Positions 1,107 to 58,534 of a stretch of DNA of 64,000 bases are shown in pieces. Numbering within the stretch: the stretch's first letter is position 1; every line of letters begins with the position of its first letter. The notes under the pieces are model-generated. The model searched no databases. It saw only the letters and a list, made by a program, of their open reading frames with translations, and was not told where the DNA came from. The translations under genes and the position numbers were made by a program. Source of the DNA: Tetradesmus obliquus. Taxonomy: Eukaryota; Chlorophyta; Chlorophyceae; Sphaeropleales; Scenedesmaceae. The stretch spans positions 4,402,001-4,466,000 of the forward strand of contig CP126198.1 in assembly GCA_030272155.1 (NCBI GenBank), in the 5' to 3' direction.

Positions 1107-3237
1107 ATGCAAAGCTTTCGTTGTCCTCATACTGCATCGGAAGCCCGTCTGGGCCGACAGAGTTGTAGTGGCACCCCGCGAGTGCTTGCTGTATCCTGCA
1201 GCGCCAGTTCCCGCCGCAGCAAACCTCTGAGCTGTCATCAACGTAGGCAGTTTAAAGGCGTCGGGAGAGGTGCGGGAGCAGTGCTGCTGATGACGCCTGC
1301 TGGATGCACTAGTTGCTGTTGCCAGCTGTTTGTTGCAAGTAGGGTCATGTAGCTTTACATCCAGCACCCCGGTAGCATATCAATGTACTGCAATGTGTTG
1401 TTTAGTAGCTTTGCAGCTTGCAGAATGCACGTCAAGCTTGCAAGCTTACGAGCAACAGCAGCCTGGTCCTGACAAACAGCTGTGCGTGTGCATGCTGCCC
1501 TGACCCCTATCCATCATCTGCTAACAACAACTTCTGGTCGCTGCTGCAGCGCGTTACGTACAAGTGCTAGCCCTGGACGCTGCTCAGCCGTTTGATTTCG
1601 AGCACAGGATGCAGCACAAGATATCAAAAGACAAGCAGCTGACCATAGGCATTGTGGGCTTTGGCACGTTTGGCCAGTTCTTGGCAAAGCGCTTTGTGCA
1701 GGCAGGACACAGGTGGGAAGCTAGCCTTGATAGCAGTATTGCACGAACAAAAGCAGCCGCAGTTTCAATTGCAGGTGACGGCATGCACGCCTTTGACACA
1801 ATGTAGAGCAGATGGCAGCAGGACAGTGACAACAGTCGGACGCTGACACTTGTAAGAGGGGCATGTTGCAGGAGCAAGCAGCAGGTAGAAGTGCGTCTGC
1901 AGGCAGTGTCTGTGCCTGTCAGCAGCACCCAGCAGCCTTGCATGTGCAGCGGCAGTTAGTTATCACCAGCCAGGTTGCTGCTGCTCGTATCAGGTGGACG
2001 TTTTGTCTGCTCATTAGCCGTAGTCAGTAGTCCGTAACGTTCAAGCTTATCTAAAGGCATCAAACAGTGGAAGCTGCGGCAGTGCTACGGGTTGTTCTGT
2101 CGCAGCAAGGGCAGGTTGCAGCCTTGCACGCAACTGGCAGCAGGCACACCTTCACTCAATTGATAAGCAGCAACTGCAACCCTGCTGCTGCTGCTGCTGC
2201 TGCTGCCGCCAGGGTGCTCGCCACCAGCCGCACGCCCTACTTCAGCGAGGCTGCTGCCATCGGAGCTGAGTACTTTGAGGATGCAGATGACTTTTGTGAG
2301 GAGCACCCAGACGTTGTCATCCTGGCCAGCAGCATCTTGTCGACCGAGCCGGTGCTGCGCCACCTGCCGCTGACGCGGCTCAAGCGCAGCACGCTGATCG
2401 TGGACGTGCTGTCTGTCAAGGTGCGCTGCTGCTGTGACAGTCGTTCTTGCATGCCTGACTGTCCATGGGCTGTGGTTATGGCAGAATTTTGTGATGTTCA
2501 GGGTTACATTGCTTAAACCTCTTCTGTCACATCACAGGTGTTTCCCAAGCAGCTGCTGCTGAGCCGGCTGCCGCCTGAGCTGGACATCCTGTGCACACAA
2601 CCACGTTTATAAGCCTTGATGCGTCAATTGCTGCCTCTGACAGTGGCTGTGATGCGTTGTTGCCACAGGTTTTCCCCAAGCAGCTGCTGCTGAGCCGGCT
2701 GCCACCCGAGCTGGACATCCTGTGCACGCACCCCATGTTTGGGCCAGACAGTGGCAAGGGCAGCTGGGAGGGACTCAACTTTATGTATGAGGCCGTGAGG
2801 GTGGGCAAGGACCCGCGGCGGCAGCAGCGGCTGGAGCTGTTCCTGGACTTCTGGCGCTCCCAGGGCTGCAGGTGCGTTGACTGGTCAAACCCTGGTCAAA
2901 CTTGGTCAACGTTTTGTGTTTCTTGTATGATGGTTTGATTTTCATGTGAGGCTGTGAGGGTGGGCAAGGACCCGCGGCGGCAGCAGCGGCTGGAGCTGTT
3001 CCTGGACTTCTGGCGCTCGCAGGGCTGCAGGTGCGGTAACCGGTCAAACTTGGTCAAACTTGGTCGGACCTGGTCAGACCCGGTCAAACATGTTGTGTTA
3101 TCTTATACAATGTTGCGACATGCTGTGCACGTCCTTGCATTGCTTGCCGTGCACTATGGCTGTACAGTCCACCTTGCTTGCTGTTGTTCCTGCTGGCAGA
3201 TTTGGATAAGCACCCTCAAGCTTTCCTGTTGTGCTGC

Positions 3238-3279
<42 letters not shown>

Positions 3280-8695: not shown

Positions 8696-9754
8696 TGGCT
8701 GGTCCACGCCTGCGAACAGCCCTCCGATACGATTAACAGAAGCCTTAAGCTTTTATTATGCCTTATTTTGGCGCCAGAACCTCACCGCTGGACATGCTGT
8801 TGAGCGTTCTTTACTGCCCCCTCCTCTCCCAACAGCGCTGCAGGATGCAAGGCTGTATACTCGAGAATACAACCGTCAAGATAGTGTAGTAGTGAGCGAA
8901 CAGCAGAAAATGAGACAGTGTCTTGCACACTCGACTGTGTTGGTGTGTTGACTGGATTCAGCTTCACGGTACAGCAATCCTGTGACTCGTCTTAACATGG
9001 CAAGATGCCGTCTGCAAAGCTTGGGATCGCCATCGCCGCGAATGTGCCACAGCATATTGACGGTGGTCCAGGGTTACAACCAATAACAGACACTCGTACT
9101 GGCCACCACTCCAGAAGATCACGCCATCTTTCAGGGTGCTTGTATGCCAGCTTCAATCACTAGCACAATGTGCTGCACATGCGCACAGGGGCTCTGTGTT
9201 GAGAACGCATCCCTTGCAATGCAGTGCTGTGCCCTTGTGAACCTGTCCACCCCAACAACAATCTCAGCACACAAGCTGCTTGCTGACACATTCTCATTTG
9301 CTTCAACGTCAGCAGTAAAACAGCCCAGCATCCAGTTCATACACAGCTGTGCGATGCACGTGCACTTGTGCGCTCCCTGATCGCCGCACCATTATCACCT
9401 GCTCCATGCACGCAGTGCATTTACTGCAGCCACACGCAGCCACGCAGCGCCCCTTGCAGTTGCTGGCCTCAGGGGTTCGTGCAGTAACCAGGCCATGCCT
9501 TACTCCTCGTGCCAGGAGCGCCTGCTCATCCCAATCTGCCGAACGCAGTTGAACAGCCAGCCAGCCAGCCATCGATGCAGCAGCCGCAGGCAGCCTCATG
9601 CTCAGGGCGCCTTGCGGTGAATCAAGCCCGGCCCGTGCTCCTCGTACTCCTGCTTACTCACCCTCCACAGCTGCCCTGCGCAGCTGTTGCAGCAGCCACA
9701 GCTAACACATGTGTACACAGCCACCCTGCTTTCGGGCTGTAGAAGGCCTGCTAA
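8696..9754. other. Intergenic between ARP4 and DPY30, with copies of the ARP4 tail
   Basis: This holds the DPY30 upstream region and the ARP4 3' flank. At about 9605-9665 and more weakly at 9495-9540 there are copies of the last ARP4 exon ([17 protein letters not shown] region), beyond the ARP4 stop. No separate gene is seen. Confidence 0.6.
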
Positions 9755-10790
9755 CTAAGGCGCCTTGCGGTGGATGAGCCCCGGGCCGTGCTCCTCGTAC
9801 TCCTGCTTGCTCATCCACATCTGCTGGAAGGAGCCCAGGCTGGCCAGGATGCTGCCGCCTGCAGCAGCAGCAGCAGCAGCAGCAACGCGATGCAGCAAAA
9901 CACACAATGCCACATGCTTAGCTTCACAGCGCAAGTTTGGGGCTTGGCATGGCACAAGCCCAGCGGCATAGAAGACAGCGGCTGCATCCTGCTAGAGGTG
10001 ATTGATGAACCCTCTTGTGCTCATACGCTGCCATACACTGCACATGCCACACCCAGCAAACCCTGCAAAGACCAGCAATGCAGCCCCCTCCTCCTCCCCC
10101 ATTGCACCGCGCTGACAAGTGGCCAGCAGTGCGCCGATCGCAGCAGACACCCGATAATAAACAGCCGGCTGGTGGCAAGACAAGTCCAGTCCTACAGCTG
10201 CAGCAGTACACAGCCACTGCAATAGTCAATCATATGAGTTCATTGACAGCGGCACCCACCAATCCAGACTGCGTGCCGCCGCTCCGTAGGGTTGACTGGC
10301 GCTGTCACTTTGACCTTGGTGCCGCCTGGTGCTGCTGCCGAGATGTCCAGCTCCAGCCGCTCACGCATCTGAGTCAGCAGCGACGTGCCGCCTGGCAGCA
10401 GCAGCAGCAGCAGCAGCATAGCACAAGAGCCGAAGGTATTGATGCAAGAGCTCTGGGAGGAGTGCAATATGCTGCTTGACGGCGGCAGCAGCAGCAGCAG
10501 CGAAGCGTACGCCCAATGTACCAGGTCTGCGGCAGCCATAAGACAGTAAGGATTGTAGTTGAGCACACCAACCTCTTTCAAACTGCTGCCTTTTCATCCT
10601 AAAAACATTTCGATCCAATGCAAGACCGTGCATCACCACCACTCACCCACAAGCACCACGTGCTGGTACAGGTCCTTGCGCACGTCCGTGTCGCATCTGT
10701 TCACGCTGTCCACCACCAGACCAGCCAGGCCCTTCAGCCCATCAGGCAGCGGGTGATCAGCCATGCCAGGGAAGCTGCGCACCAGTTGCT

Positions 10791-10861: not shown

Positions 10862-11537
10862 GGCAGCGGAGGAGGAAAAGAGGGGCGGTCAGAGCGTGCA
10901 AAGAAAGAGAGGCCGAGGGGAGTGGAGGCGGTACATGTGTATTGTAGGTGGCGGGCTATGGGATGCACGGACGCGTCAAGTGTGCTGCAATGATGTGCGA
11001 TAGCACTAGCTGCTGTAGCCCCACTGCATTGTGGTGCGCCCCGCATGAGGCAAGCAGCGGGTGGTCCGGCTGCAGCTGCAGCAGCAGGGACTTTTAGCGT
11101 TGCAGTAAGCACAGTGTGTGCAGGCTGCTTGTAGTGCACCACAACCTGCTGCTGTTGCTGCTGCAGGTGCTGCTGCTGCCAGCTGCAGTGCTCACCGGCT
11201 GGAACAGCAGCTCGGGCACCTTGAACCTGTCCACGCCAACCTGGATCTCATTGCCATCAGGCAGCTGCAAACAGCAGCAGCAGCAGCAGCAGGATTAGGA
11301 CACAACACCTTGAACCTGTCCACGCCAACCTGGATCTCATTGCCATCATGCAGCTGAGAATGCGAGGCAGCAGCAACAGCAGCAGCAGCAGCAGCACAGC
11401 AGCAGCAACGGACAGCATGGTCAGGCAATAACAGCAGCAGCAGCCGCAGCAGCAGCAGCAGCAGCAGCACCAATCTCACCTCGTACGTGATCGCCGGCAC
11501 GGTGAGGTTGTCCGCCTCTACAACACACAACAACAAA

Positions 11538-11588: not shown

Positions 11589-14279
11589 CACCTCATATGT
11601 AATGGCCGGCACGGTGAGGTTGTCAGCCTCCACAAAGTGCACGTCGCTCACACGTGACACCAGCTCCTTGATGTCGCCCACAATCAGCTCCGACTGGTGC
11701 GCCAGGAAGCTGGCGGTGAGGCCGGCTGCATCAGGTGCTGGCAGCACCTGCAGAGGCAGTTGATGTAGCAACAAGCACAGGTGTGTATGTGAGATGGAGG
11801 GAACGGCAGTCAAGGTCTTCAACTCTTTGAGCCAGGAAGCTGGCGATCAGCGTAGCTGTGTCACCGGCAGCACCTGCAGGGGCTGTGAGTGCAGAGTGAG
11901 TGCCTGGCACCAGCTCCTTGATGTCGCCCACGATCAGCTCTGACTGGTGAGCCAGGAAGCTGGCGATGAGCCCGGCTGCATCGGGTGCTGGCAGCACCTG
12001 CAGGCGCAGTTGATGTGGTAACAAGCATGTGTCTGTGAGATACACGCAATGGCAGTCAAGGTCTTCAACTCTTTGAGCCAGGAAGCTGGCGATCAGCACA
12101 GCTGTGTCACCGGCAGCACCTGCAGGGGCTGTGAGTGCAGAGTGAGTGCCTGGCACCAGCTCCTTGATGTCGCCCACGACCAGCTCAGACTGGTGAGCCA
12201 GGAAGCTGGCAGTCAAGCCGGCTGCATCGGGTGCTGGCAGCACCTGCAGAGGCAGTTGGCGCAGCGTTACACAATGAGGATGTGTGTGAGACAGCGCAAG
12301 CGATGTCAGCAAGCTGGGTGTGAGGCCGGTGGCAGCAGCCAGCGGCACTGCAGCGGCGAATTGGGCAGGGAGTGAGAAGAGACGTGACATGTGGTCAGGG
12401 CCCACCCAGCGCGTGACACCAGAGCTCCTTAATGTCGCCCACAATCAGCTCAGACTGGTGTGCCAGGAAGCTGGCGGTGAGGCCGGCTGCATCAGGTGCT
12501 GGCAGCACCTGCAGGCAGAACAGCACCACAGGATGTCTTCTGGTCAAAACACAACAAGCAATGAGAAGAGAGCATGATGCGCTCAGCCTGGTCTCATTCA
12601 GGCCGTTAGCCTGTTTTGTAACACGGCAGCAGCCGCAGGGGTGGTGAGTGCATGACACGAGCTCCTTGATGTGCGTCAGGAAGCCGAGGGTCGATGCACA
12701 AACCTTCAGCACAACCATGCAATGACACGACCATCACACCCCCATACACGCATGGCTGAAATCCGAATGATGCCAAACCACCCACCCAAAGCCCCAGCCA
12801 CCCCACTCACGTCAAACTCGCCAGGGAAGCCCTTCTTTTCCACGCGCTTGAAGGTCTGCCGCGGCCGCAGCTGGCTGCCCCGCGCCTCCATCGCCTTCTG
12901 CAGGCAGCTGTTCAGCAGGCGGCCGCCCACGGGGCTGCGGGACACTGACTTCGTAAGCACGTAGCCATCATGCACGCCCGCGACTGCATTGCGGAGACAC
13001 ATTGCATGCGGCGGCGGCGCAGCAGAACAACACCAGCATTGGGGCGCAAGCAAGCCGGCCCGCCATGGGGATGCGCGGCTACAAACATGGTCAGCACGCA
13101 GCCGTCATGCACGCCAGCCTCTGCAGTGCATTGGATGCAGCAAACCAAGCAAATGAGCGGGTGCAACGTTAGTGCTTGCGGAGCAGCTACACAACAATGA
13201 TTGCAGACTTTGCCAGGACGCAGCCGCCGTGCAAGGCAGCCAGTGCGTCGCGTGCCGCAGCAAAGCGCGAGAGGGTGAGCAATTCGCACGCATGCTGTCC
13301 ACTGAGCCGCTGTACAGCCACTGTCTCTGACTTGGCCCACACCACCATGCATACATACATTGGCAATACGCCGGAACACGCACCAGCACACACAGCACCA
13401 AATACAACCCCTGCTAGTGCAAACATACTCAGATAAATAGATACAAGGTACCTTTGCATTCAATCCTACCTGTGGTGCAGCCGTAGCCCGCGTCCACCAC
13501 CACGCTGGTCTGCTTGGCAACTGAGAACGTGGCCAGCACCGCATCCTTGGCCAGGAACAGCGCGGGGCAGCTGCAGCAGAACAGCAGCAGCAGCGGCGGA
13601 TGCGAAACAGTAAGAAGGTGGCCAGCACCGCGTCCTTGGCCAGGAACAGCGCGGGGCAGCTGCAGCAGCACAGCAGCAGCAGCAGCAGATGCCAAATGCA
13701 CAATGGGCAGCAACCAGGGAGAACAGACGACACTGTTCAAGAATTCCGGCAGGCGCTCAAGCCCATGCCCCTAGCCCCCTTTGCCACAGCATCCACCATG
13801 CTTGCCAATGCCGCTCCCACTGCATCTTATGACCTTGCCTTTGCCACTGCTGCTGCTGCTGCTGTTGCAGCGCTGCCGAAGGAAACCGCATGAACCCGCA
13901 GCACTCACCCCAGGTGCTTGAAGGTCGCCTGCACCGTGCTCTCACGCGCCTTGCTAGTGCATCTGATGTGCTTTCCGCTGCTGCTGCGGCTGCTGCTCTG
14001 CAGTGGCGCTGGCCCAAGGACCAAGACAAACCAACTCACCCCAGGCGCTTGATGACCGCCTGCACTGTCTTTTCGGCACCTTGCTACTGCTTCTAACGTG
14101 CTTACCGCTGCCGCTGCTGCTGCAGCAGCACTGCCGCAAGGACCAACACAAGTCACTTCGTCAACTCACCCCAGGTGCTCGAAGGCCGCCTGCACCGTCT
14201 TCTCCCGCACCTCGCGGCTGTTGTGAGTGGGCTCAGCCAGCAGCACTGCATTCTCACGAGGGTCGATGTGCAGCCGCTC

Positions 14280-14312: not shown

Positions 14313-14884
14313 GGCGGCACGGTGTGGTCAAGGTGTGAGGCACTGGTGCTTGCTGCGAGTGTGCTGCAGCTGTTGCCGTGTTTCACCGCTGCTGCTGCTG
14401 TTACCGAAGCCTGAATCCTGCTCACATCACGCAGCTGCTGCTGCTGCTGCTGATGCTCAAGTCCACAGCCCCCTGCCAATGCTGTTGCTGAGCAGCTGCT
14501 GCCCACTGCCAAGCAGGCTGCATGTTGTTGCTGGTGCTAGTGCTGCTGCTGCAACTGCTGGTGTCACACCTGCTGCTGCTATTGCTGGCACTAGTGCTGC
14601 TGCTGCTGCTGCTGCTGCTGCATCTCCTCCCCAGCAGTAGCCTGGGCCCTCCCCTGCCGTACCTGAGCGCATACTCCCACAGCTGCTGCTTGCTGTTACA
14701 GCTTGCCAGTGCTGCTGCTGCTGCTGCTGCCGCATCTCCCCACAGCAACCCCCGCCCCTCTCAACACACACCATGCCCCTGCTTGCGTTCTATCCTGTCA
14801 CGCACCTGAGCGCGTACTCCCACAGCTGCTGCGTGATCTCCCAGTCACCCAGCAGCCCATCTGCGGTGAAGGGAGACACCACCT

Positions 14885-14924: not shown

Positions 14925-15380
14925 CAGGAGTGACCCAGCAGCCACCGTATAATGCAAACTGCAATCTCATTGTCAATAACTCGTGCACCTCCTGTCTATG
15001 TGACATATCAGTAGGGGCTTGGGCCGCTGCCTGCCGCTGCTGTCCTTGGCGCCGTGAGGCATGCCGCTGTTTGTTAGACACATTCACTTATATGTATTGC
15101 ACATTACTGCCTTTTCCTTGCTGCCTCGCCTCCACGTCTGGCCGCTTGTAGCCAAACTCCCCAGCACATAGTGTATCAACAGCAGACAAGGAACTGTTAT
15201 GCTGCTATGTTGCTATGTTGGCGCTGCCTCACCTCCATGTCTGGCCTCTTGTAGCCAAACTTCCCAGCACAAATTCTCTCAAAGGCAGACAAGTAACTGT
15301 TATGCTGCTATGTCGTTATGTTGGCGCTGCCTCACCTCCATGTCTGGCCGCTTGTAGCCAAGCTCCTCAAAGCAATAATA
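9480..15380 (-). repeat. Families of partial exon duplications within and after ARP4
   Basis: At least nine exon ends have extra copies. The last exon is repeated at about 9495-9665, the exon 9 5' part ([11 protein letters not shown]) at 11300-11360, and the exon 8 3' end ([12 protein letters not shown] plus donor) at 11465-11522. The exon 8 5' part ([15 protein letters not shown]) starts again at about 11997, 12243 and 12508, with worn pieces near 11874 and 12123. The exon 7 5' part (GVHDGYVLT) recurs at 13090-13250 and the exon 6 5' part at 13610-13670. The exon 5 3' end ([10 protein letters not shown] plus donor) recurs near 13910 and 14040, the exon 4 3' end at 14655-14695, and the exon 3 3' end (GYKRPDMEV plus donor) near 15130, 15235 and 15335. 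Only one member of each family keeps the full frame. Confidence 0.9.
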
Positions 15381-15869
15381 TCAAATACACACATGATGAT
15401 ATTATATCAAAGCTGCCTCACCTCCATGTCTGGCCGCTTGTAGCCTAGTTCTTGGCTGCCGTAGAAGAGCTTGCGGCCCTGCTGCTGCTGCTGCTGCTGC
15501 CCGTCCACCTCCATGCCGTTTGCTGCTGCGCTGTTCGCCACAACACCCGCCAGCTGCAGCAGCACAGAGTAAGGTTGCAGCGCCACATAACACATCAGTT
15601 GACATCAAAGCACGTGTGCTGGTGACAACGCTATCGTGCTGCTTGTGGTGCTGCTGCAGTTCTTGTGTTGATCTAGGTGATTGTACATGTGTGTGAATTA
15701 GCAGGAAATACAGCTGGACGCAGTTGAAAGACAGCGGCACCGACGCAGTGGCGCCAGCAGCTACTCCCCTACAACTGCTGCTGCTGCTTCTCACGCATGC
15801 TCGCAGCTGTTCACTGCTGCTGCTGCTGTAGGTGCTGTTTGTAGAGCGGGCATTGTTAGCTGTCATCCC

Positions 15870-17047: not shown

Positions 17048-20045
17048 ATGTGGAAAAGTCAACCAGTACTTGTGGACGACGATGATGCTCCTCCACCCGG
17101 CTTTGGGCCAAAACGATTTGAAGATATGATGGCAGCGGGCAGCAGGGGCCCTCCTGCAAGCGACCAGTATGCATCAGCACCGCAGCAGCACCACAGGCAG
17201 CAGCAGCAGCAGCACTGGCAGTCCTCATCCCCAGAGCCTTACAGCAGCTATAAACAGGGCCCTCCTGCAAGTGCTACTGCTGCAGGGGCCCGCAGCAGCA
17301 GCAGTTATGCAGCTGCTGGGTCTGCAGGTGCTGCCGTGCCTGCTGTCGGTGCAGCTCGGCAGTTTCAGCGGGCTCTCCACAGCAGCTTAGGAGAGCGGCA
17401 GGAAGCACTTAGCTCAGCAGCAGCAGGGACCGGCAGACTCCGGCAACCGCCTGGTATGCAGCAGCAGCCCCAGCAGCAGCCCCAGCAGCAGCAGCAGCAA
17501 CGGCAGACATCGCCCCTGCCCGACTATGGTGACTACAACGATGATGATGACGACTACGGAGCGAGCAGCAGCAGGCGCAGCAGCAACAGCCGCAAGTACC
17601 CGGCAGGCGGTAGCAGCAGCAGGCCCGGCAGCAGCAGCAAATTGACAGGGAACCGTAGCTACGGCAACTTGAGTGTGTCAAGTGCAGCATCACACCACTC
17701 CCAGCACTCTCAGGCGAGCCCCCAGCGCAGCACGCAAGGCACACCGCCACGTGTGCCACAACAAGCTGCAGCTGCAGCTGCTGACAGCAGCCGCTCCCCT
17801 GCACCACACCAGCAGCAGCTGCAGAGCCCGCAGCAGCAGCAGCAGCAGCAGCGGGCGCAGCTTGCCAGGACGCCTACACCAGACTATGGGGAGTACGATG
17901 ATCTAGATGACTACGGCAGCAGCAGCAGCAGGCGCGGCAGAGGCGCAAAGGGATCTCGGCCCGGCTCTGCTGCTGGTGGTGGCCTGGACCCGAACAGTGC
18001 GCTGGCAGCAGCCAACCAGGCGCTTGCAGGCATCCCCAATGCAGTGCCAGCAAGGAAGGTGAGCCACTGCTGCTGATGCACACTTGGCCAGCTTTTGCTA
18101 GTGCTACAGATTTGGTCAGAGCCATGAGCAGCTTGTGTTGCTGGGGGGCATCCCCAGTGCCGTGCCTGCAGAAAAGGTGAGCCACTGCTGCTGATGCGCA
18201 TTCGGCCAACCTTTTAATGGTGCTACTGATGTGATCAGAGCCATGAGCAGCTGGTGTTGCTGGGGTCCATACCCAGTGCAATGCCTGCAGAAAAGCTGAG
18301 CCACTGCTGCTGATGCGCACTCGGCCAGCCTTTTGATAGTGCTACTGATTTGATCAGAGCCATGAGCAGCTTGTGTTGCTGGGGTCCATACCCAATGCAG
18401 TGCCTTCCTTGCAGGTGAGCCACTGCTGCCGCTGTAAACTGATTCCCAGAGGAGCAGGCCAGCTGATGCTCTGTTGCAGTTGGAGTTTGGGGGCACTGTG
18501 CGATGATAAGTCATGTGCCCTGGCTAGGAGCTGCGCTCGGCTGCAACACTAGCCACAGCCGAAGCCTTTGTCTGCGTGCACCTGAATATGCACAGCAAAG
18601 TTCTCACCTGCTGCTGCATTGCTAACGAGATGCCTCTGCTGCCCGATGTCCCTGTCCCTGTCCCTGTCTCAGCAGCGCCGCACACGCCGCGGCGGCCAGA
18701 AGACGCGCTTGATCGCGGCGGCAGCAGCAGCAGCAGCAGCCGGCTCGCCAGGAAGTAACACAAACAATAACAAGCTCTCTGCGGAGCGCTCAGCTCAGCT
18801 CGAGGCTGAGCTTTCTGCGCTGCGTGCTGCGCTAGCTGAGGCCGAGGAGAGACAAGTTGAGGCTCAGATGGCTGTGCTGAGCTTGGAGACGGACAACTCC
18901 ACGCTGGCGGCGCAGCTGGAGGGCATGCGGGCGCAGAAGCAGCAGCTGGAGACAATGCTGCTGTTTGGCGGTGAGTGAGGGTGTTTTGTGCGGGTGTGGT
19001 GTGGGGCGGTTTCGGGGTTGTGGAGCAGGCTGAAGTGGTGGTGCGTGCTGGCTGCTGCTGCAGCCCTGCTGCCAGCGTGTCTTCAACTGTCTCCCTGCGT
19101 CTGACTTGCCGCTGCTGATCCTTTTCATGCTGTGTCGCTTCATCTCATTGCTGATGCCTTGCTGTGCCTCAGGTGGCGGCGATCAGGAGGGCGACGGCTA
19201 CCAGCCGTACCCATATGTGTGCTTGCCTTTTACTGAGTCGGTGCATCTCATTGCTGCTGCCGTGCTGTGCTTCAGGCGGCGGCGACCAGGAGGGTGACGG
19301 CTACCAGCTGTACCCGTATGATGATGACGAGGATGAGGATGACGAGGACTACACATCAGATGACGACGATGACAACGCAGCAGATGCAGCAGATGCAGCA
19401 AACGCTGAAGGTGCAGCAGGAGCAACACCTCTTGCTGAGCAGGGAAGGCAGCAGCAGGCTGCGGTGGCGGCAGATCAGCCGGCCACGCCAGCAGCAGCCA
19501 AAGCGCGCTTCAGCTGGGCTGACGATGCTGATGCTGCTGAGCTGGAGGAGGCAGCTGACCTGTCACCTATTATTGCAGTTCCTGAGCTTGCAGGAGCAGC
19601 AGCAGGCGGCAGCAGCAGCAGCGGCGGCGGCGCGCTGGGCCAGCGCTGGCAGATGCCAGATAGCAGCCTGCCTCCTGGTGCTGCTGATGTGTTGGAGGCT
19701 GAAGACGAGTTGCGGCGGCTGGGGCTGCTGCCACCAGAGGCTGCAGCAGCAGATGCTGCTGCTGCTGCTGGCGGTGAAGCTGCTTCAGGTGCTGCTGATG
19801 TGTTGGAGGCCGAGGAGGAGCTTCGACAGCTGGGGCTACTGCCACCAGAGCCTGCAGCACCTGCAGCAGCTCTAGATGCTGCTGCTGCTGGTGGTGAGGA
19901 GGCTGCTGCAGATGCTTCTGCCCCAGATGCAGCTGCTGCTGCTGCTGCTAGTGGCGAGGAGGCTGGCGATGGTGCTGCTGCTTCTGCGGAGGAAGATGTT
20001 GCAGCTGCTGGTGCAGGCGTGGATGCGGCGGAAACGAAAGCATAG
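17048..20045 (+). CDS. Large disordered acidic/coiled-coil protein, 692 aa, unknown
   Basis: Exons 17048-18058, 18673-18970 and 19276-20045, phase-consistent with GT-AG introns. It starts MWKSQPVLVDDDDAPPPGFGP. Residues up to about 337 are Ser/Gln-rich, with two related acidic blocks, PDYGDYNDDDDDYG and PDYGEYDDLDDYG, each followed by a Ser/Arg stretch. Exon 2 adds a basic patch (QRRTRRGGQKTR) and a likely coiled coil (LEAELSALRAALAEAEERQ). Exon 3 begins with a long Asp/Glu run, then FSWADDADAAELEE, and has two repeats of the form DVLEAEEELRQLGLLPPE before an Ala-rich acidic tail. No catalytic domain is seen and I do not recognise the family. Exon 1 and exon 3 ends have partial copies in the introns (18059-18420 and 19173-19220). 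The start codon is a choice among in-frame options. Confidence 0.7.
18059..18420 (+). repeat. Tandem ~120-bp copies of an exon 1 donor region
   Basis: The end of exon 1 (coding for GIPNAVPARK plus the donor GGTGAGCCACTGC) is followed by three more copies, with junction-like points near 18177, 18296 and 18413. The units are about 120 bp. The second unit keeps GGTGAGCC and the third has GCTGAGCC, so at least one copy has lost the GT donor. Confidence 0.85.
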
Positions 20046-33968: not shown

Positions 33969-34006
<38 letters not shown>

Positions 34007-34103
34007 AGGCAAGGTGAGGGATTATTGATGGTTGGCTGAGGAGTGACGGGTGCGGCGCGTTCGACGGTCTTGATGCGCTCGAGCTGTGCGTGGGAAGATG
34101 GGA

Positions 34104-34139
<36 letters not shown>

Positions 34140-34368
34140 AGGGAAGGGAAGGTGAGTAATGGTGATGGTTGGCTGAGGAGTGACGGGTGCGGCGCCTTTG
34201 ACGGTCTTGATGCGCTCGAGCTGTGCGTGGGAAGATGGGATGGCAGCAGCAGCAGCAGCAGCAGCGAAGGGAAGGGAAGGTGAGTAATGGTGATGGTTGG
34301 CTGAGGAGTGACGGGTGCGGCGCCTTTGACGGTCTTGATGCGCTTGAGCTGTGAGTGGGAGGACGGGA

Positions 34369-34416
<48 letters not shown>

Positions 34417-34516
34417 TATGAACGAAGCTGAGTAATGGTGATGGTCGGCTGAATGCTGACAGGGGCGGCACCCTCGACGGTGTTGGTGCGCTCGAGCTGT
34501 GAGTGGGAGGACGGGA

Positions 34517-34554
<38 letters not shown>

Positions 34555-41000: not shown

Positions 41001-43640
41001 CTGATTGCTTTGCAAGACCCTGCAGTGCTGGGTGCTGTTTTTGAGATGCACACACACTGCGTGGCACGCAAGCACAGCTGTTGCCCTCGTCACATCCGCG
41101 CTGCTGCCGCAGCTGTCGGTGTGCATGCAACTGGCTGGCCATTGTACAATGACTGACGCCCACATTTGGGCGCGCTATACAGGCAGCATATACAGCATGA
41201 AAGCAGGGCCTGATGTAAGCAAAACAAGTATACAGTAACAATACATGGCAACTCACGTCCTTGGTGGCGCTTGCAATGCCTGCATACCTGGGGCGCTCAT
41301 ACAAGGTGCACACAAGCAAGCAGTCTTGGCCACAGCAACGTATGTAAAGTGATCACATGTTTCAGCTCACGTCTTTGGTGGCGCTGGCGATTCCTGCATA
41401 CTTGGGGTCGCTGTCGTACTTGTCCCGCCACTCTTTGGGATAGGAGCGGTACACCTTGCCCTTGAAGGGGCCACCGGTGCGGCTCCTGCAAGCCAGTAAA
41501 AACAGGAATACGAATCTTTCTAGCCTTTGCATCTTGACTTGGGGTAGGAGCGGTACACCTTGCCCTTGAAGGGGCCACCGGTGCGGCTCCTGCAAGACAG
41601 TGAAAACAGGAATACGAATCTTTCTAGCCTGTGCATCTTGACTTGGGGTAGAAGCGGTACACCTTGCCCTTGAAGGGGCCACCGGTGCGGCTCCTGCAAG
41701 CCAGTGAAAACAGGAATACGAATCTTTCTAGCCTTTGCATCTTGACTTGGGGTAAGAGCGGTACACCTTGCCCTTGAAGGGGCCACCCGTGCGGCTCCTG
41801 CAAGCCAATAAAAACAGGAATATGAACATTTCTAGCCTTTGCATCTTGACTTGGGGTAGGAGCGGTACACCTTTGCCCTTGAAGGGGCCACCCGTGCGGC
41901 TCCTGCAAGCCAATAAAAACAGGATTTTGATTTTTCTAGCCTTTGCATCTTGACTTGGGGTAGGAGTGGTACACCTTGCCCTTGAAGGGGCCACCTGTGC
42001 GGCTCCTGCAAGCCAACAAAACAGGAAGTCGAATCTTTCTGGCCTTTGCATCTTGACTTGGGGTAGGAATGGTACACCTTGCCCTTCAGGCGGCCACCCG
42101 TGCGGCTCCTGCAAGCCAGACAGAGAGACAGCTATGATATTGTCACGAGCGTATCTTTGGATGACATGTGGCGTGTACTAGGTGCACACACAACCATACG
42201 GCATGTGGCAGTGAATGCTGCCTGCTGTAACACAAAGGTGCGCTTGCACGCTGTCCTTGTGCAGCAGCTGTCGTTTTAAATTCAAACATGATTGTAACAA
42301 ATGTAACACTCAGGCAACTTTGACGGTGAGACCTGCACACAAGCATTTGGCCAGGCTGCGTACGTGTGGATGGCGTGTGGCGCACAGTAAGTGAACGCAT
42401 AATGAAACATGACATGTGCAGATATTGCTGCTGCCTGTTGCAACACGAAATTGTGCGTACGTGTGGATGGCGTGTGGCGCGTAGTATGTGAAAAAGGGCT
42501 TGCCGTCTGTTTGTCGCCTGTCCAGGAAAGATAGCACTTGATCCATCAGCTGGTCATCCACCCACTTCTTGGTCTGAACATACGCGCCTGCACGACACAA
42601 CATGAAGTTCAACATGAAGTTTAGCATGAAGTGCAGTGTGAAGTTTGCCTGTGCAGCTTGCAGTGCAGCTGGGTGCTTCAGTGCAGGGATGCAACAGCGA
42701 ATGCTTCCATCTGCTTTACATGCCGAGAACAGCTTTACATGCTAAGACTTCTGCGTACTCCCAGTCAACAGCATGGTCATGCGCGTGTGAGGCTGCTGTA
42801 GCCTGGCAGGACACCAGCTGTGCCACATTATCATGTAAGGGTATATGTGTTTGGGGCCACAGTACTGGCGCCAAATTTGAATGTAGGGGTTCATGCAAGT
42901 GCAAGCTCTGTTGCACGCTGCCCTGCAGACCTCTCATCTGTACTGGCTCAACAGTTGCTGCGGCAGGGCTCATGCAGTAATGTGCTGGTTGCACTGCACT
43001 GTGCAAGTCAGGGCCCCTGGTAGCACTCACCATTGTGGCTGCACTCATCATTAGCATCATGAAGACAGTTTGCAGCAGCAAGAAGCAGTGCTGTCAGTGC
43101 CAGGATTGTTCAAGTGACGAAGTACAGCAGCTGCAAAGCCCTGAGTGCATGTGCGCATACACTGTATGTGTTCGTCTTTCTCCATGCTCTGTTTGCAGCC
43201 AATGCTGCCGTCAGCATGGCAGCTAGTGCAAGTATATGCTGCTTAGATGGCGCTGTCTGTCAGCATTCAACATCTTCTCAGCCAGCAGCAGCTTGTAAAG
43301 TTTTTAATCATTGAATGTTGTGCAAACTTGTCGCCACAAGCATGTGCAACACTGCACGCCATGTTCCAGTGTGTGCTTTGCAGTGCATAGCGGGGGCTAG
43401 TTTACTGCACATTGTGCGGCACCACACACCTCATCAGCGCGTCCTCAAACTGGCTGTCACACATTTGCAGCACTGCACATAATACAGCAGTCGAAAGGTG
43501 GCTAGCAAGCTGTTCTCTTCACCATGCGGCACCACACACCTCATCAGCGCATCTTCGAATTCGCTGGAAGGGAACCAGCTGTCTTGGAAGCCAACAGTCC
43601 ACGGCTCATAGCCAAGTGTGCGCCCGTTGTGCCTGCAGGG

Positions 43641-47969: not shown

Positions 47970-49060
47970 CTACGACCCACCAGCCGGCCAAGCGCGGTTC
48001 ACCTGGCTCAGCATGGCAGCCGAGATCCGCAACATGTCACGCAAGCCCAGGGTGTAGTAGCGGAGGTAGCACTCCGACTTCCAGTCACCCTGGAACCGCG
48101 TGAAGAACGGCGCCAGACCCGATGCAAGGGCCCCAGACGCACCACCACGCCGCAGCGAGTGTGACGCATACTGGCTGGGATCCAGCCCCAGCAGCGCCAC
48201 CAGCTCCTTCACACCACTGGCCAAGCCGTCAAAAGTGAGCGGCTGCAGCACTCCATCCGCACCCCTAAACATGAAGAAAGGGTCAGTGGGGGCTGCGGGG
48301 TGCGCTGCCACATAATCCTGATACAAGCGAACAGGATCCAGCGGCGCACCCTTGCTGCCCGTCACAAAGATAACATGCTCCCGCTCGAGAAACTGCAGCG
48401 TCTTTGTCTCACGCAGCGTGAGGCGCAGCGCATACAGCTCAGGCACAAACACCACATCGCAGCGACGCAGGTGTTTGCGCCCTTCAAATAAAGCACTGCT
48501 GCCAGGCACCAGGTTGGACCTGCGCAGCATGCCAACACGCCTATCACACAGGCAAGCACCAAGCACTGCACCCTGCTATCCCAGCCACGCTGCAGCTGCA
48601 GCACCCAGCACAGCAGCATCTCCATGGTGATGGGGCGCTTCTGCTGCTGGCAGGCACCGCGCACCCGCCGGATGCCCTTCAGCTGCCGCTGCAGCAGCGT
48701 GTAGCCAGACCAATCGACCGGCCCAAACGACCCCAGATGGTACTTGAGGCCAGCCAGCTGATTCTTGATGGTGTCGGCTGAACACGTGGCTGCAAGGAAG
48801 GCCGCATAGGCTTGCAGCAATCGTTCTGTGGGATGTAGCCAGCAGGGGTCCAGGGGCAGGCCGCACGCCAGCAGCCACCGCACGTAGTACAGGGCGGAAT
48901 CACTGTACTTGGCGGCCATGCGGCCGGCAAGGCCCTGGCTGGAGTACGCCAGAGCCCGCAGCCCAAACATGAGCAGCGCAGGTGTAGGCTGCACGCCTGC
49001 CAAACAACACACCGGTACACACGCAGAGCATACATGATGCTGTAAGAGAGAGACGGCCAC
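47970..49060 (-). pseudogene. DIRS tyrosine recombinase, one frame shift
   Basis: The N-terminal part (49060 to about 48550) has SALYYVRWLLACGLPLDP and TIKNQLAGLKYHLGSFG, a core-binding domain. After a frame change near 48550 it continues through GMLRRSNLVPG (first catalytic Arg region), TLRETKTLQF, YASHSLRRGGASGAL (His-x-x-Arg) and QGDWKSECYLRYYTLG (Trp, and Tyr nucleophile), ending at 47970. Only one lesion is obvious. Confidence 0.85.
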
Positions 49061-49306
49061 AAGAAAGATGTTGAATCAGGACAGGGGGGCCAAACCTGCC
49101 ATGAAGAAGCAGCGGACTGCAGCGGGCATAATACACGTGAGCGGGGGCGATGCACAGGCAATGCAAAGAATGCAGCGACAGCATGTGCACGTGCACAGCA
49201 CGACTCAGACAAGACCAGGCCTCAATGCCATCCTGACGCTGCGGCAATCACCCCGCCCCGCCCAACCCGCTGCACCGCCCGCTGCCAGTTGCTGGCGGCT
49301 GACACA

Positions 49307-51616
49307 TCAGCAAGGCTGCAGGAACGCCAGCGCAGGCACGGGGCTGCGCCCCTGCTGCCGCAGCCAGTCGCGCAGCGCTGAGCGGAAGGTACCCCATTCC
49401 TGCCGCGACGCTGCATCTGCCAGAACATTGGTGCTGCTGCTGATCCAGAAAGGCTGCAGCCGAAAATCCAGCTGCACCTCAAGTGTGAACAGCTGCAGCA
49501 GGTACTGCAAGGCCTGCTCATAGCAGACCTTCCCCTTAACCGTCCCCTTGCTGAGCCAGGCGAAGACGTTGCTGTTGTCAACGCCCAGCTGCCAGTACTG
49601 GCCCTGCAAGTAAGAGCCGTACAGCCGCGGCATCACCAGCACAGCATACAGCTCCCACAGCTGGATCGGCGCCTCTACTGCCGGTGCATCCTCATACAGC
49701 TGCCGGCACTGCTGTGCTGTCAGGCCACAGAAGCCACCATCCACAAAGATCCCAATTCCTGGCACCTCGGTGTCCCAAACCCCGCAGGCGTCAGTGCTGA
49801 GAAGCTGCCAGGGGCGCGGCTGCCGGTACAAATGCTGCGGCAGCCATTGAACTGCTGCAGCGCTGCATGCCACCACCGCAAGGCCAGCCGCGCCTCGCTC
49901 CGCAGGTACACCTTGTGGTGCGGCTTGCGGCACCGCAGGCCACACCGGCGGATGGGGTTAAGCAGCAGCGGGCCACCCCAAACCACGTCGCTGGCCCACT
50001 GAAGCCTGCCCACCACTGAATCCAGCTCCCGCTTGGTGCAGCGGCTGTTACTGCTGAACTGCCGCACCAGCTGCTGCAGCTGCGCCACACGCCCAGCTGT
50101 CAAACGCAGCTGCATGCTGCAGCTGTCAATCTCCAACTCCAGCGTCTGCATCACCTGGGCAGGCGGTGCAGACTTGTGCAAGCTGGGCACAAAGCCAATG
50201 TGCAGCAGCGCTGCACACAAGACATGGAAGCCCAGCAAGCAGCGCTGCACACAAGACATGGAAGCCCAGCAAGCAGCGCAGACGGGCGCTGTCGAAGATA
50301 TTAAAGTCATCCAGAAGCGCATACACCACCTGCCATCCCAGGCGCTGCATCAGCCTGACAAGCGCCTGGCTGAACCTGTCAGCCACCTCAGGCCCGTGTC
50401 GCAGGCCGAACAGCACCCGTGTGCCCCATACCTCAACCTCCGCTGCCCGGTCACCATTGCTGTGGCTGCTGCTGCCGCAGGTGCCGCTGCTGCTGCTGCT
50501 GCCAGAGCTGTGGTGATCGCCGCTGCTGTTGTCACTGCTGGCGGCTGCCATTTCACCAGACAAAGACACTGCCGGCACCCGGAAGGCCAGGTACGGCCAA
50601 TGCCAAGGGCTGGCCGGCAGCTGGTGGAAGTACGAATGCACATCCACCTTGCACATCCAGCCGCCAGGCTGCACTGCCTCTGCAAACTGCCGTGCTGTCA
50701 TGAAGCGGCGGGGCTGGTAGCGAATGTGGTCATTAACAGCAGCGCCAGACGGTCGAGCAAAGTCATGTATACGACGAGCTCCAGTCGGCGCTGCTGCCGG
50801 CCCTTTGGGCACCACACCAGTGGCATGCACCCAAGGAGAGTGCACGCCAGCTGGGGGCACCGCCACGTGGCATTCACTAAGCTCCTGTGCTGCCGCCTCT
50901 GCTGCAAACGCGGCAAGGCCAGGCGGCACAGAGTAGTTGGTGCAATCAAAGGCTGGCACCACATGGCCGGGGTGCACAATAGGCACACCATCCTCCAGCC
51001 AGCGTACCAGCGCATCGCAGTCCGGGTCCCCGGCAAACAACTGCCGTGCATGAGCTGCATTGAGGGGCCATCGACTGCGCTGCGCAGCCACCCAGTCCAT
51101 GAGGCCCGGGCCCCACTGCTGCGGCTCTGGGCGGCTGCCAGACGTAGCGTCTGCTGGGTCGTCTACTCTGCAGTCTTTACTGCTAGGCGACGGCTGGTGG
51201 GGCTGGGCTGCTGCTGCAGCACGCTGCGGCTGCAGATCATCAACAACCCCTGGGCTGCCACTGCTGTCAGCTGACGGCTCATCACCCCACTCCCAGCGTT
51301 CTGCGTACGATGAATCAAGCACCTCCAGCAGCACCGCTGCACGCTGCTTGATGACAGACAAAGGGTACAATGTCACCAGCTCGCGCACCAGCGGCGGGAA
51401 CTCCAGCAGCAACGTGCCGTAATCAACATGATCCGGCACATCACCAGCCGCCACATGCTGGCACTGCTGCAAAGGCTGCTGCCCTGGCCCTGTCAAACGC
51501 TGCTGCTGCAGCTGCTGCTGCTGCGGCTGAGGGGGCGCCGGGCTACAGGCTGCTGCGCGGATGGAAAAAAAGAAAACAAGTATCTCCGCCACCTCATGAA
51601 TCACGCAATTGTGCAT
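49307..51616 (-). pseudogene. DIRS reverse transcriptase / RNase H, frame-shifted
   Basis: The RT part (51616-50126) has ARRIHDFARPSGAAVNDH, MCKVDVHSYFHQLPAS (motif A Asp), FGLRHGPEVADRFSQAL and YALLDDFNIFD (motif C, LLDD). A 34-bp direct duplication at about 50212-50279 shifts the frame. The thumb-like part continues in the next frame (LELEIDSCSMQLRLTAGRVA, TKRELDSVVGRLQWASDVVW). A second shift near 49830 leads to the RNase H part ending at 49307, with LLSTDACGVWDTEVPG, QLWELYAVL, QLGVDNSNVFAWLSKG and STNVLADAASRQ. These are the Asp-Glu-Asp-Asp positions of RNase H. A Ser/Gly/His-rich insert of about 45 residues lies between RT motifs A and B. As read it cannot make an intact enzyme. Confidence 0.88.
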
Positions 51617-54876: not shown

Positions 54877-54907
<31 letters not shown>

Positions 54908-57900
54908 CCGTCAACAGCAGCAGCGGCAGCCTCAGAGGATGGGTTGAAGTTGCGGCTGGTGTTCAGCAGGGAGGCTGCGCTGCAGCTCGGCTCAGAGATG
55001 AGCAAGCAAGGGCCTGTACGGGTGCTGTCAGTTGTAGTGCTAGCAAAAGACAGCAAGAAGGACAGCGCTAGGCCCTGCAGCAGCGGCGCAGACAGCATAA
55101 CCGCAAGCATCTGCAGCAGGAGCACCGGCACTGGCAGCAGCGGCAGCTCGAGCGTGCTGGCTGCAGCTGCAGCTGCAGCAGCGGTGTCTGGCGCTGTTGT
55201 GCCAGGGGTGATTGCGCACCTGCCGCTGCTGCTGCTGCCGCCGGCTGCTGCCAAGGAGATGCAGGGGGTGTTTGAGGCAGCAGTGGCGGCTGGCGTTGAC
55301 CGGATGCAGGCCAACCAGCAGCTGCTGCTGCGGCTGGTGCAGGATTGGGCGCTGCTGATGCTGCTGCTTGATGGGAGCTCTGGCAGCGACGGCAGCAGCA
55401 GCAGCAGCAGTGTTGCTCACAGCCCTGGCAGCAGCAGCTTGCTGCGGTCGCCTCTGCAGCTGATGCAGCAGTCGCTGAACGAGTCGCTGTCGACGTATTT
55501 TGCGCAGCACAAGCTCGAGCGGTGCCTGAGCCTGCTGCAGTCGGTTGCAGGCGCCGCCGGCAACAGCGCCGCGAAAGCTGCGCGGCTGCAGCGGCAGCAG
55601 CAGCAGGCGCAGCAGCAGCAACAGCAGCAGCAGACGTACAAGCCGCACTTCTCTGCGGACTTCTACCTCTACACGTTCAAGATTGCCAACTGCACAGCGC
55701 AGCATCCGCACGACTGGTCTACGGTGAGTGTGCGGCAGCAGGAGTAGCACAGGCATTATCTGTGGCTGGCTAAGCGATAACAAGCAGTGTGACTGTGCGC
55801 TTGTACATGCTGTCCTGCAAGCATGGTGCTGCCTCTTGTGGGTGTTCAGTAGGTTGCACATCATGCCCACACCACCCCTGTATGCTGACCTGGACACCTC
55901 TACCGCGTGCTCGTGCCACATTTGTTCCGCTGCACATCTCTGTGGCTCTTTCGCTGCAGTGCCCGTTTGCGCACCCGCGGGAGAAGGCGCGCCGGCGCGA
56001 CCCCCGCCTGTTTGACTATGAGCCGCTGCCCTGCCCCGATGACAAGAAAGGGCACAGCTGCCCGCGCGGCGACAGCTGCAGCTACACACACAACGTCTAC
56101 GTGAGTGTCGGCAGCAGCAGCAGCAGCAAGGCGCAGAAGTTCCACCTGCACGCAAAGCGCTGCCATACTTAAATGTGTCAGTTGTCCTTCCTTCAGCGTC
56201 TGGGCTCTCACTGCTGCGCTGTTTTTGCACTGCTGCACTGCACTGTTGCGCCGCCTTGCCGCTGCGCATGAGTTCCACCTGCACACGAAGCGCTTCCGCA
56301 CACAGATGTGTCACGTGTTCTTCTTGCTTCAGCTTCTCCGTTCTCACTGCTGCACTGTGCTGTTGCGCTGCTGTCCTGTACTGTTGCGCTGCCTCGCCGT
56401 TGCGCAGGAGTTCCACCTGCACCCGAAGCGCTCCCGCACACAGATGTGTCCCGTGCTCTTCTTATTCTATCTTCTAGGCTCCCACTGCTGCACTGTTTTT
56501 GCACTGCTGCGCTTTCCTGTTGCGCTGCCTTGCCGCTGCGCAGGAGTTCCACCTGCACCCCAAGCGCTTCCGCACGCAGATGTGCCAGCACGGCGTGGCC
56601 TGCACGCGGCCGCTGTGCTTCTTCGCACACACCCTGGAGGAGCTCAGGTGCGGGGGTGGGTGGGGGCATCATGCAAGCTGCTTTGCTAACTGCTTTGCAT
56701 AACTGCTCTGCAAACTGCTTTGCAAACTGCCGGCCGCTGTGCTTCTTCGCACACACCCTGGAGGAGCTCAGGTGCGTGGGTGGCGCAGCAGCAACAGCAC
56801 TTAAGTGGACGGATGGGTGTGTGGGTGGTCGGGGATCCCAGCACGGTGCTATGCAAAATGCTTTGCAAACTGCCGGTTGCTGTGCTTCTTCGCACACACC
56901 CTGGAGGAGCTCAGGCGCGGGCAGCAGCAGCGCACAGCATTGTCGGAGCTGTGACCAGCAGCGCTAGCAGCAGCAAGCCTTGCAGCAGCGCACAGCAGCA
57001 CGAAGCAGCAGCAAGCAGTGCTCAGTATCACTTTGCTGGCTCATCGTGGCTTCTTTGTCCAGCCCAGGCTGTTACGTTTTGTATTGCTGGCATTATGTGG
57101 CAGCTTGAATTGAGGAAGCGAACACAACACTGCTGACATCACCAATGAATACAGCTGGTCGACGTACGCAGACTGCCATGCAGACTGCTATGCTACTGCT
57201 CGGCAAGCTGTCGCAACGGTTGATGATTGCGTATGACATGCAGGGTCGTAGAGGCAGAGCACAAAGAGGAGGAGCAGGAGCAGCATAAGCAGGGGCTGCA
57301 GGGCCAGCCACCGGAGCGGCAGCAGCTGGCACAGCCAGCAGCGCAACAGCAGCAGAGGCCGCAGCAGCCGCAGTGGTTGGTGCCACCCCGGCAGCAGCAG
57401 CCGCAGGCGCAGCAGCCGCCGCAGCGGCAGCAGCACATCCGCTCTCAGCCACCTTCAAAGCCAACTCAGGTGCAGGCCCAGGGACAGCAGCCTGCATTGC
57501 AGCAACCCCTGCGCCCGCAGCCACATGCTGGCGCTGGCAGTGTGCCGCCGCAGCAGCAGCAGCCGCTGCTGCGGCGTGCTGCTCCAGACCTGGGCATTCC
57601 CACAGCAGCTGTGGCAACAGCAGCAGCCGGGCCGGCAGAGAGCGCCCCTTCAAGTGCTGCAAGCAGCGTGGTAGGTGCAGTGGTGCAGATGCAGATGCCA
57701 CCACCACCAGCAGCAGCAGCAGCTGTGCCGGGTTCTTCAGCAGGTGTCTTGTTGGGCCTGAGTCCGCGTGCTGGATCTGGCCTGGTTGCTAGCCCAAGGT
57801 ATGTTGCGGCACAGCAGCAGCCGCAGCAGCTGCAACAGCAGCAACAGCAGCTGCAACAGCAACAGCAACAGCAGCAGCAGCTGCAACAGCAGCAGCAGCA

Positions 57901-58534
57901 GCTGCAACAGCAGCAGCAGCAGCTGCAACAGCAGCAGCAGCAGCAGGCCATGCTCATGTCTGGCGTTGCCGTGCCTGGTATGCAGCCTGCTGCTGCCGCA
58001 CTGCAGGCACCAGGGCTAACATGGCTGCAGCAGCAGCTGCAGGCAGGCGGGCAGCTGCAGAGCAACGCTGGGCTGTACGATGAAGTGGCAGCGATGTCAG
58101 CAGCAATCAACCGCCAGCCGCCACAGCACCAGCAGCAGCAGGTTCAGCAGCTGCAGCCGTTGCTTGAACAGCTGATGCTGCAGCAAGCAGCACAGCAGCA
58201 GCAGCAGCAGCAGCAGCGGGCCAGCGCGGCTGGCACAGGGCTGTTGATGCAGCCGGGTGCGGCAGCCGGCAACATGATGATGATGCCTGCTGGTGCAGCT
58301 GCAGACTACCAGCAGCAGCAGCAGCTGCAGCAGCAGCAGCAGTGGTTGGCCAACTATGCGCCGCAGGGTGCACAACTGCAGGAGTTGATGCAGTTACAAG
58401 CTGCTGCTGTGGCGCCGCAGCAACTTCAACAGCAGGCACTGCAGCAGCAGCAGCAGCAGCAGCAGCAGTACCAGCTGTGGGGCCAGCAGCAGGGTTCACC
58501 ATACCCGGGGTCCCAGACACAGCCCTTGTGGTGA
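52045..58534 (+). CDS. Plant-type arginine-rich tandem CCCH zinc-finger protein (RR-TZF), large
   Basis: RR-TZF proteins bind AU-rich RNA and control mRNA decay and translation (family knowledge). Exons: 52045-52248, 52447-53470, 53871-55723, 55960-56100, 56544-56647 and 57244-58534, phase-consistent, 1538 aa. The hallmark is FYLYTFKIANC with C1017, H1023, C1028 and H1032 in C-x5-H-x4-C-x3-H spacing. HPREKARRRDPRLFDY follows, then C-x8-C-x5-C-x3-H (1052-1071) and C-x5-C-x4-C-x3-H (1088-1103, CQHGVACTRPLCFFAH). After LEELR comes a Gln-rich tail to the end. The N-terminal exons (residues 1-409) carry several hydrophobic segments (LLDVALLLFGCAVPAAVW, WYLLGVPLCCMTAAL, SCLLAGTLGLLTGG), unexpected for this family. 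The junction 53470/53871 is phase-compatible, but a separate membrane-protein gene ending at 53484 cannot be excluded. Exon 1 is tentative. The exon 5 region is multiplied in flanking introns. Confidence 0.88.
53495..53700 (+). repeat. Minisatellite in an RR-TZF intron
   Basis: Eight or so degenerate units of GCTTGCAGGACAGATGATT, about 24-36 bp apart. Many contain TTGCAGG, resembling an acceptor. Confidence 0.8.
56115..56915 (+). repeat. Partial copies of RR-TZF exon 5 ends
   Basis: The exon 5 5' part (EFHLHPKRFRTQMC with acceptor GCGCAG) is preceded by three copies in ~136-bp units, starting near 56133, 56270 and 56409. The exon 5 3' part (PLCFFAHTLEEL plus the donor AGGTGCG) is followed by copies near 56731-56772 and 56874-56917. 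The intact exon is 56544-56647. Confidence 0.9.

Follow-up and report, generated by a model that had tools for sequence, protein, structure and literature searches.

Local copies of exon edges in introns and 3' flanks of Tetradesmus obliquus genes

The window analysed here is a 64-kb stretch of the green alga Tetradesmus obliquus (C8:4402001-4466000, CP126198.1), taken from a genome of 104.66 Mb in 17 contigs with a GC content of ~57%; it holds no N. Its genes include a prephenate/arogenate dehydrogenase-like gene, the actin-related ARP4, a sulfatase-like gene and four genes called golgin-like, disordered-protein, membrane-protein and RR-TZF. The last four names are labels of the first-pass annotation; for the others Pfam backs the actin-related gene above cut-off, and the matches of the prephenate dehydrogenase (PDH_N) and sulfatase genes fall below it. 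When the window was compared with itself by blastn, 63 direct pairs were found, of which 58 lie no more than 1 kb apart, along with 3 inverted pairs. A looser cut-off gave 59 near direct pairs in 30 clusters and no inverted pairs ≤600 bp apart within the 64 kb, and one dinucleotide shuffle of the window compared with itself gave 0 pairs. The self-comparison yields 28 direct-repeat families with an offset of 60-600 bp, a 44-bp minisatellite at 58.5-60.3 kb being left out. Tandem copying of exon-intron junctions, which the first-pass annotation had described in several unrelated genes, is real: read by eye, the alignments of 25 of the 28 families extend over an exon edge, in most cases together with the splice signal. 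Families hold between 2 and 7 copies, with the maximum at 41435-42119. The loci are listed below, the three non-edge families last; heads are the 5' and tails the 3' ends of exons, and changed codons are those that differ between copy and real exon.

2533-2602 and 2664-2733, plus strand: prephenate/arogenate dehydrogenase-like gene, exon head with acceptor; the copy (2533-2602) precedes the real head (2664-2733) by 131 bp; 4 silent and 0 other changed codons of 19, spacer not seen duplicated.
2788-2907 and 2947-3065, plus strand: same gene, exon tail with donor; real tail 2788-2907, intron copy 2947-3065, 159 bp downstream; 2 silent and 0 other changed codons of 26, spacer resembling the flank.
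9606-9674 and 9759-9824, minus strand: ARP4 (actin-like), last 55-69 bp of the coding region in the 3' flank; copy 9606-9674, real 9759-9824; 4 silent and 0 other changed codons of 16, each piece matching Pfam Actin separately.
11217-11360, minus strand: ARP4, exon head; real at 11217, copy at 11306, 89 bp upstream in the transcript.
11478-11523 and 11590-11635, minus strand: ARP4, exon tail; real 11590-11635, intron copy 11478-11523; 6 silent and 0 other changes by hand count.
11655-12516, minus strand: ARP4, exon-head array with acceptor at 11655 (real), 11905, 12151 and 12412, partial copies at 11828 and 12074.
12917-13129, minus strand: ARP4, exon head and a decayed upstream copy, 75% identity.
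13524-13696, minus strand: ARP4, exon head and copy, offset 89 bp; 2 silent and 0 other changes in 14 codons.
13821-14215, minus strand: ARP4, exon tails with donor at ~13904, ~14041 and ~14165 (real); neutral-looking decay, 1 silent and 5 other changed codons of 15.
14658-14835, minus strand: ARP4, exon tail; real at 14801, copy at 14658; spacer resembling the flank.
15120-15451, minus strand: ARP4, exon tail (real at 15412) and three copies, unit ~103 bp; outer spacer not found.
18029-18440, plus strand: disordered-protein gene, exon tail with donor, ~3.4 copies, unit 118 bp.
19130-19320, plus strand: disordered-protein gene, exon head with acceptor; copy at 19130 upstream of the real head at 19233; 4 silent and 1 other changed codons of 14.
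24937-25140, plus strand: golgin-like gene, exon head; copy at 24984, real at 25098; exon part identical.
25233-25449, plus strand: golgin-like gene, real exon tail and copy.
27186-27446, plus strand: golgin-like gene, exon head; copy at 27186, real at 27333; 5 silent and 4 other changes in 25 codons.
29664-29848, plus strand: golgin-like gene, exon head; copy at 29664, real at 29789; 3 silent and 1 other change in 18 codons.
29906-30664, plus strand: golgin-like gene, end of the coding region, several copies in the 3' flank.
33915-34554, minus strand: membrane-protein gene, exon head with acceptor; real at 33915, copies upstream in a CAG-rich array (read from the alignment).
39800-40019, minus strand: sulfatase-like gene, exon tail; real at 39948, copy at 39800; 2 silent and 0 other changes in the 11 codons kept.
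41249-41412, minus strand: sulfatase-like gene, exon tail; real at 41363, copy at 41249; 5 silent and 1 other change.
41435-42119, minus strand: sulfatase-like gene, seven exon heads and six spacers, unit 104 bp; real at 41435.
42357-42492, minus strand: sulfatase-like gene, 39-bp exon-edge pair, offset 97 bp; the least certain of the 25.
43415-43566, minus strand: sulfatase-like gene, exon tail; real at 43525, copy at 43415.
56131-56588, plus strand: RR-TZF gene, exon-edge array, unit ~133 bp, last copy read as real; outer spacer not found.
56607-56939, plus strand: RR-TZF gene, exon tail with donor, ~2.7 copies.
19677: in-frame coding repeat.
53497: short minisatellite.
61878: non-coding tandem duplication.

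More than twenty families in 64 kb had been taken to indicate an ongoing, genome-wide process that builds introns from exon edges. Recurrence holds well beyond the window: the same kind of family occurs in the sampled stretches L012, L014, L021, L022, L024 and L028, and exon-edge copying was found on at least nine contigs. That rate, however, is not the rate of the whole genome. The window belongs to a dense region, since its two 20-kb flanks hold 22 families in 40 kb, whereas two other contigs gave 19 families in 170 kb sampled (counts that include coding repeats and non-coding families), so that local-family density in the window region is ~4-fold that elsewhere (28 in 64 kb versus 19 in 170 kb). 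The 170 kb are 17 unselected 10-kb stretches, two repeat-rich stretches and one masked one having been dropped from the 20 taken. Some arrays are recent, such as L014:2627-2959 with its identical copies, and the lengthening of introns by exon-edge copies is likewise supported.

The copies fall on exon edges more often than random placement on the same locus gives. Across 274 kb, a predicted coding edge is crossed by 37 of 62 families, where units of equal length would give 24.1 (P = 4e-4). The coding segments come from a codon model that was trained on this DNA, and 7 of 69 families, being repeats confined to a single coding segment, were excluded. In the test set by the first-pass annotation, whether junction-spanning copies are commoner than random partial duplications, these 274 kb show enrichment. 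Families in which the match covers <80% of the unit cross an edge in 17 of 28 cases (11.3 expected, P = 0.019), and those matching over ≥80% of the unit at ≥85% identity in 6 of 9 (3.3 expected, P = 0.057). The junction habit is real, at ~1.5-fold enrichment under imperfect annotation, and 39% of random placements would cross an edge by chance (24.1/62).

Most copies keep the acceptor or donor, as had been claimed, with exceptions such as 15120, one L029 copy and L038:4653079. The further statement that one copy per family keeps the full frame stands in part: only one copy continues into the exon body, yet in many others the copied piece stays in frame and differs from the real one by silent changes. 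The proposed seeding of new exons or introns finds no support in the donor/acceptor pairs: 40 alignments contain 12 in-register pairs against 9 in a mirror control, with one alignment (12435/11677) entered out of register; on the same count, in-register splicing between copies was rejected as a general account. At 41249/41363 an in-register splice would, by our reading of the alignment, leave the protein unchanged. About 11 donor-type copies were checked by eye, unscripted, and around one-third have a compatible splice-site phase, as chance predicts.

The spacing of copies is narrow. Unit sizes of 105-265 bp, as first described, are roughly right: the smallest offset per family has a median of 128 bp (IQR 110-147) in a set of 61 families, of whatever kind, drawn from the window, both flanks and the sampled loci. 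Offsets of 80-170 bp account for 84% of these 61 families in a search range of 60-600 bp, a distribution in which the method partly hides short offsets and leaves the sharp upper edge unaffected. Six exon-edge arrays (41435, 18029, 15120, 56131, L014:2627 and L031:9152) have the form A(XA)n, where the edge A is present once more than the spacer X. Spacers within these arrays are identical in L014 and L031 and clearly similar in the others. Beyond the last intron-end copy no spacer was found in the six (p 0.08-0.89), and on the exon-body side there is a weak match in L014 only (p = 0.003). Two units (the first two of the 41435 array and ARP4 11905-12150), searched against the 104.66-Mb genome with simple repeats and very common words skipped, match their own arrays only, and a dispersed element was rejected for both.

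Of 23 exon-edge pairs, 8 have a spacer similar to the expected flank, and 3 show similarity on the control side; no similarity was detected in 15 of the 23. Such similarity is recovered in 86-100% of simulated tandem duplicates, and old tandem duplication with a decayed spacer is therefore disfavoured for most of the 23 pairs. In three young cases (the outermost L014:2627 copy, 15326/15412 and L022) the close match reaches no further than 5-10 bp into the intron. The non-coding duplications at 61878, 62838 and L018:7107 repeat the whole unit head-to-tail, as tandem duplication does, with the spacer absent or one base long. The last of these spans L018:7107-8313, a 597-bp head-to-tail duplication of 98% identity outside predicted coding segments.

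A route free of DNA self-comparison gave the same kind of copy. Three Pfam profiles were run against the whole genome and the best candidates scored, with two or more nearby same-strand matches counted as a gene cluster and the better-scoring match taken as the real exon. The best candidates form 22 clusters (11 Cpn60/TCP1, 6 tRNA synthetase and 5 actin), 9 of which (8 of 21 outside the window) carry extra exon pieces that match the same stretch of the profile beside a better-scoring exon. These 24 pieces comprise 8 heads upstream and 16 tails downstream, the sides expected under local copying. In two of them (C16 247-281 and C15 374-401) neither end coincides exactly; the weakest of the set is the C15 synthetase piece, and one ambiguous C15 Cpn60 piece was left out. 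The best case is the C16 Cpn60 gene, where one exon has three head copies in front of it and a different exon has four tail copies behind it.

Two further loci show related arrangements. At C7:776121-776700 a second actin-like gene has a near-identical C-terminal coding end ~450 bp downstream, as ARP4 does in the window, with 2 silent changes and 1 other in 34 codons. At L029:2700-4200 a single exon is preceded by two copies of its head and followed by five or more of its tail, in a higher-order array; in one pair of these tail copies, 457 bp apart, divergence is greater in the exon parts than in the neighbouring intron (13/67 versus 11/100).

The differences between copy and real exon are too often silent for neutral decay. 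With a single pair taken from each family whose frame could be set confidently (31 of 61 families kept), 72 of 131 changed codons are silent and 59 are not (45% nonsynonymous), a count in which at least two of the 31 rows seem misframed or non-coding (56131, placed in the wrong frame by the codon-count script, with 0 silent and 4 other; 61878, with 1 and 1) and were kept, lowering the silent excess. In simulation, 63% of the changed codons of a neutral copy next to a constrained exon are nonsynonymous, and a neutral simulation on predicted exons passed through the same frame-finding pipeline gives 0.635-0.654; the frame model was trained on the same DNA, and the simulation indicates that the pipeline itself does not create a silent bias. 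The observed 59/131 lies below the simulated 63-65% (P = 3e-5, assuming independent changes). An earlier count by eye gave ~76 nonsynonymous of 202 changed codons, and the scripted count is preferred.

The excess is unevenly spread. Silent changes outnumber nonsynonymous ones in 15 of the 31 families and the reverse is true in 9. Split by the match classes used for edge crossing, the 16 families with a match over <80% of the unit have 35 silent and 19 nonsynonymous changes (35%), and the remaining 15 have 37 and 40 (52%). Among the 18 pairs in which four or more codons changed, 6 carry no more than a single nonsynonymous change, a share that is 3-5% in simulation for neutral copies and 29-37% for constraint on both sides. 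In 20 of the 24 Pfam-found pieces 76 changes are silent and 39 are not, a count biased by their discovery through protein similarity. The 16 families with alignable intron have an exon/intron substitution ratio of 0.59 (exon limits set by hand), close to the ~0.63 that a hand calculation gives when one copy is neutral and the other constrained, and indels of 0.0063 per column in exon and 0.0200 in intron; families alignable into the intron thus look closer to neutral in rate. Frame-breaking indels or stops occur in several copies (ARP4 12412, the L029 heads near 3890 and 4020, L034:4180597 and L036:3960592). Many copies, above all partial-unit matches, show the divergence of working exons, and some appear unusable now. 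Gene conversion between real exon and decoy was rejected as a cause of the silent bias by argument, given that conversion erases silent and other differences alike.

Our favoured explanation, held tentatively and at somewhat under even confidence, is local copying of exon edges followed by unequal exchange, with a diverged working exon supplying or later replacing the sequence of some copies. A local DNA-copying event with a step of ~128 bp, whose structure is seen in the repeats and whose enzyme we infer, would duplicate exon edges, so that an exon piece of ~25-110 bp with its splice signal would land in the adjoining intron or 3' flank. Copies would survive where the version joined to the exon body still works; because head copies lie upstream and tail copies downstream of the real exon, the protein is unchanged. 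To judge from the copy counts, A-X-A would arise first, and unequal exchange between the A copies would then give A(XA)n. Families in which part of the intron was copied too would diverge nearly neutrally afterwards, and partial-unit copies would owe their sequence, at origin or through later overwriting, to a diverged exon that is in use, for example the allele carried by the homologue if the alga is diploid. PMC7955037 reports a related strain, Scenedesmus 46B-D3, to be probably diploid, with its alleles separated. The two searched units have no second copy in this assembly that would prove a homologous source.

Local copying, selection that spares the working edge and unequal exchange account for the position, direction, arrays and near-neutral class of the copies but not for the silent class, which calls either for a diverged working exon as source or overwriter, or for present or recent use of the copies. 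Silent divergence in some families, such as the six silent changes in ~15 codons at 11478/11590 (hand count), counts against the favoured explanation, as it would need very diverged alleles, and so do the 9 of 31 families with more nonsynonymous than silent changes. The favoured explanation accounts neither for the 128-bp step nor for matches ending 5-10 bp into the intron. A further-reaching reading, possible though doubtful, is that recurrent copying is aimed at junctions with a fixed ~130-bp step and that spare edges are exchanged with working exons, through the homologue or array turnover; introns would then be continually rebuilt from exons and would act as a store of exon ends that are nearly functional and have diverged by silent changes.

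A rather doubtful alternative is that random segments of ~100-150 bp are duplicated in plain tandem and decay neutrally, those spanning junctions being harmless and visible for longest, as one of their exon copies is under selection. The 39% of random units that would cross a coding edge speak for this, as do the almost neutral ratio of 0.59 in families with alignable intron and the 40 nonsynonymous changes among 77 changed codons where most of the unit matches. However, edges are crossed 37 times rather than 24.1, the spacer is often not duplicated, and only 19 of 54 changes are nonsynonymous in families matching over <80% of the unit, against the 0.635-0.654 expected.

Use of the copies as alternative exon ends or splicing decoys, kept by selection, may explain the coding-type divergence (72 silent and 59 other; 76 and 39 in the Pfam pieces, with the bias of a protein-similarity search), the mostly intact splice signals and the persistence of pieces recognisable as Actin, Cpn60 or tRNA synthetase. 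We consider it unlikely: no consistent route to a normal protein was found, with in-register pairs at 12 against 9 in the mirror control, some copies lie in 3' flanks after the stop, and several carry frame-breaking indels or stops.

An assembly artefact, such as merged haplotypes placing both versions of an exon edge in tandem, is improbable. Silent differences beside unalignable introns are the pattern two alleles could give, and alternate haplotype contigs were part of the assembly of the related strain (PMC7955037), but the narrow 128-bp offset, arrays with as many as seven copies, the higher-order L029 array, young copies that are identical, the presence of copies on nine or more contigs and a window free of N all argue the other way. 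Creation of introns by tandem duplication of AGGT-bearing exon segments (the Rogers model) or by introner or transposon insertion fits the direct repeats adjoining splice sites and the protein-preserving splice that 41249/41363 would permit, but is most improbable, given 12 in-register sites against 9 in the control, copies inside introns that have their own splice sites, and two searched units without dispersed copies.

The exon-edge copies share features with several known systems. Tandem exon duplication and mutually exclusive exons give adjacent exon copies with silent divergence, whereas the alga copies one exon edge with one splice site, often without a phase-compatible second site. Introner elements form dispersed families of pervasive, gene-embedded, intron-associated repeats and have been described in some algae; the two searched units here match their own arrays only. 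End joining by polymerase theta leaves templated insertions, in which short nearby sequence is copied beside a break. This could give A-X-A; to our knowledge, the exon-edge preference and the 128-bp step lie outside its usual description. In PMC4974935, on the potato RdRp gene, the copied block carries the parental intron/exon structure, and internal duplication and intron gain by duplication are treated as already known. As described there, the potato intron gain is, like the present copies, a direct duplication of a short segment including an exon-intron boundary; the alga differs in that its copies lie inside existing introns or 3' flanks, the spacer is often unduplicated, dozens of families exist and no new intron is demonstrated. 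Among the matches listed from open-licence literature, which largely leaves preprints and subscription journals outside, none reports pervasive exon-edge copying in green algae or a genome with narrow-step A(XA)n exon-edge copying and silent divergence.

If routine, such copying would be an abundant and direct source of cryptic splice sites, intron growth and possibly new exons within one genome. The ages of the copies range from identical to barely recognisable, and intron lengthening and the origin of decoy splice sites become testable by comparison of strains. Annotators should also be warned that protein-homology searches pick up exon-edge pieces as extra exons.

The window holds other repeats and candidate mobile sequences. 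A large 44-bp minisatellite of ~26-32 copies occupies 58853-60209, and 20521-20666 has matches of 81-94% identity at seven other places in the genome and is probably a dispersed repeat. On the minus strand, the coding stretch at 47976-51541 reads by eye like reverse transcriptase/RNase H, and 31836-33900 holds a tyrosine-recombinase-like gene with a Phage_integrase match below cut-off; together they suggest DIRS-like or related mobile elements between the genes.
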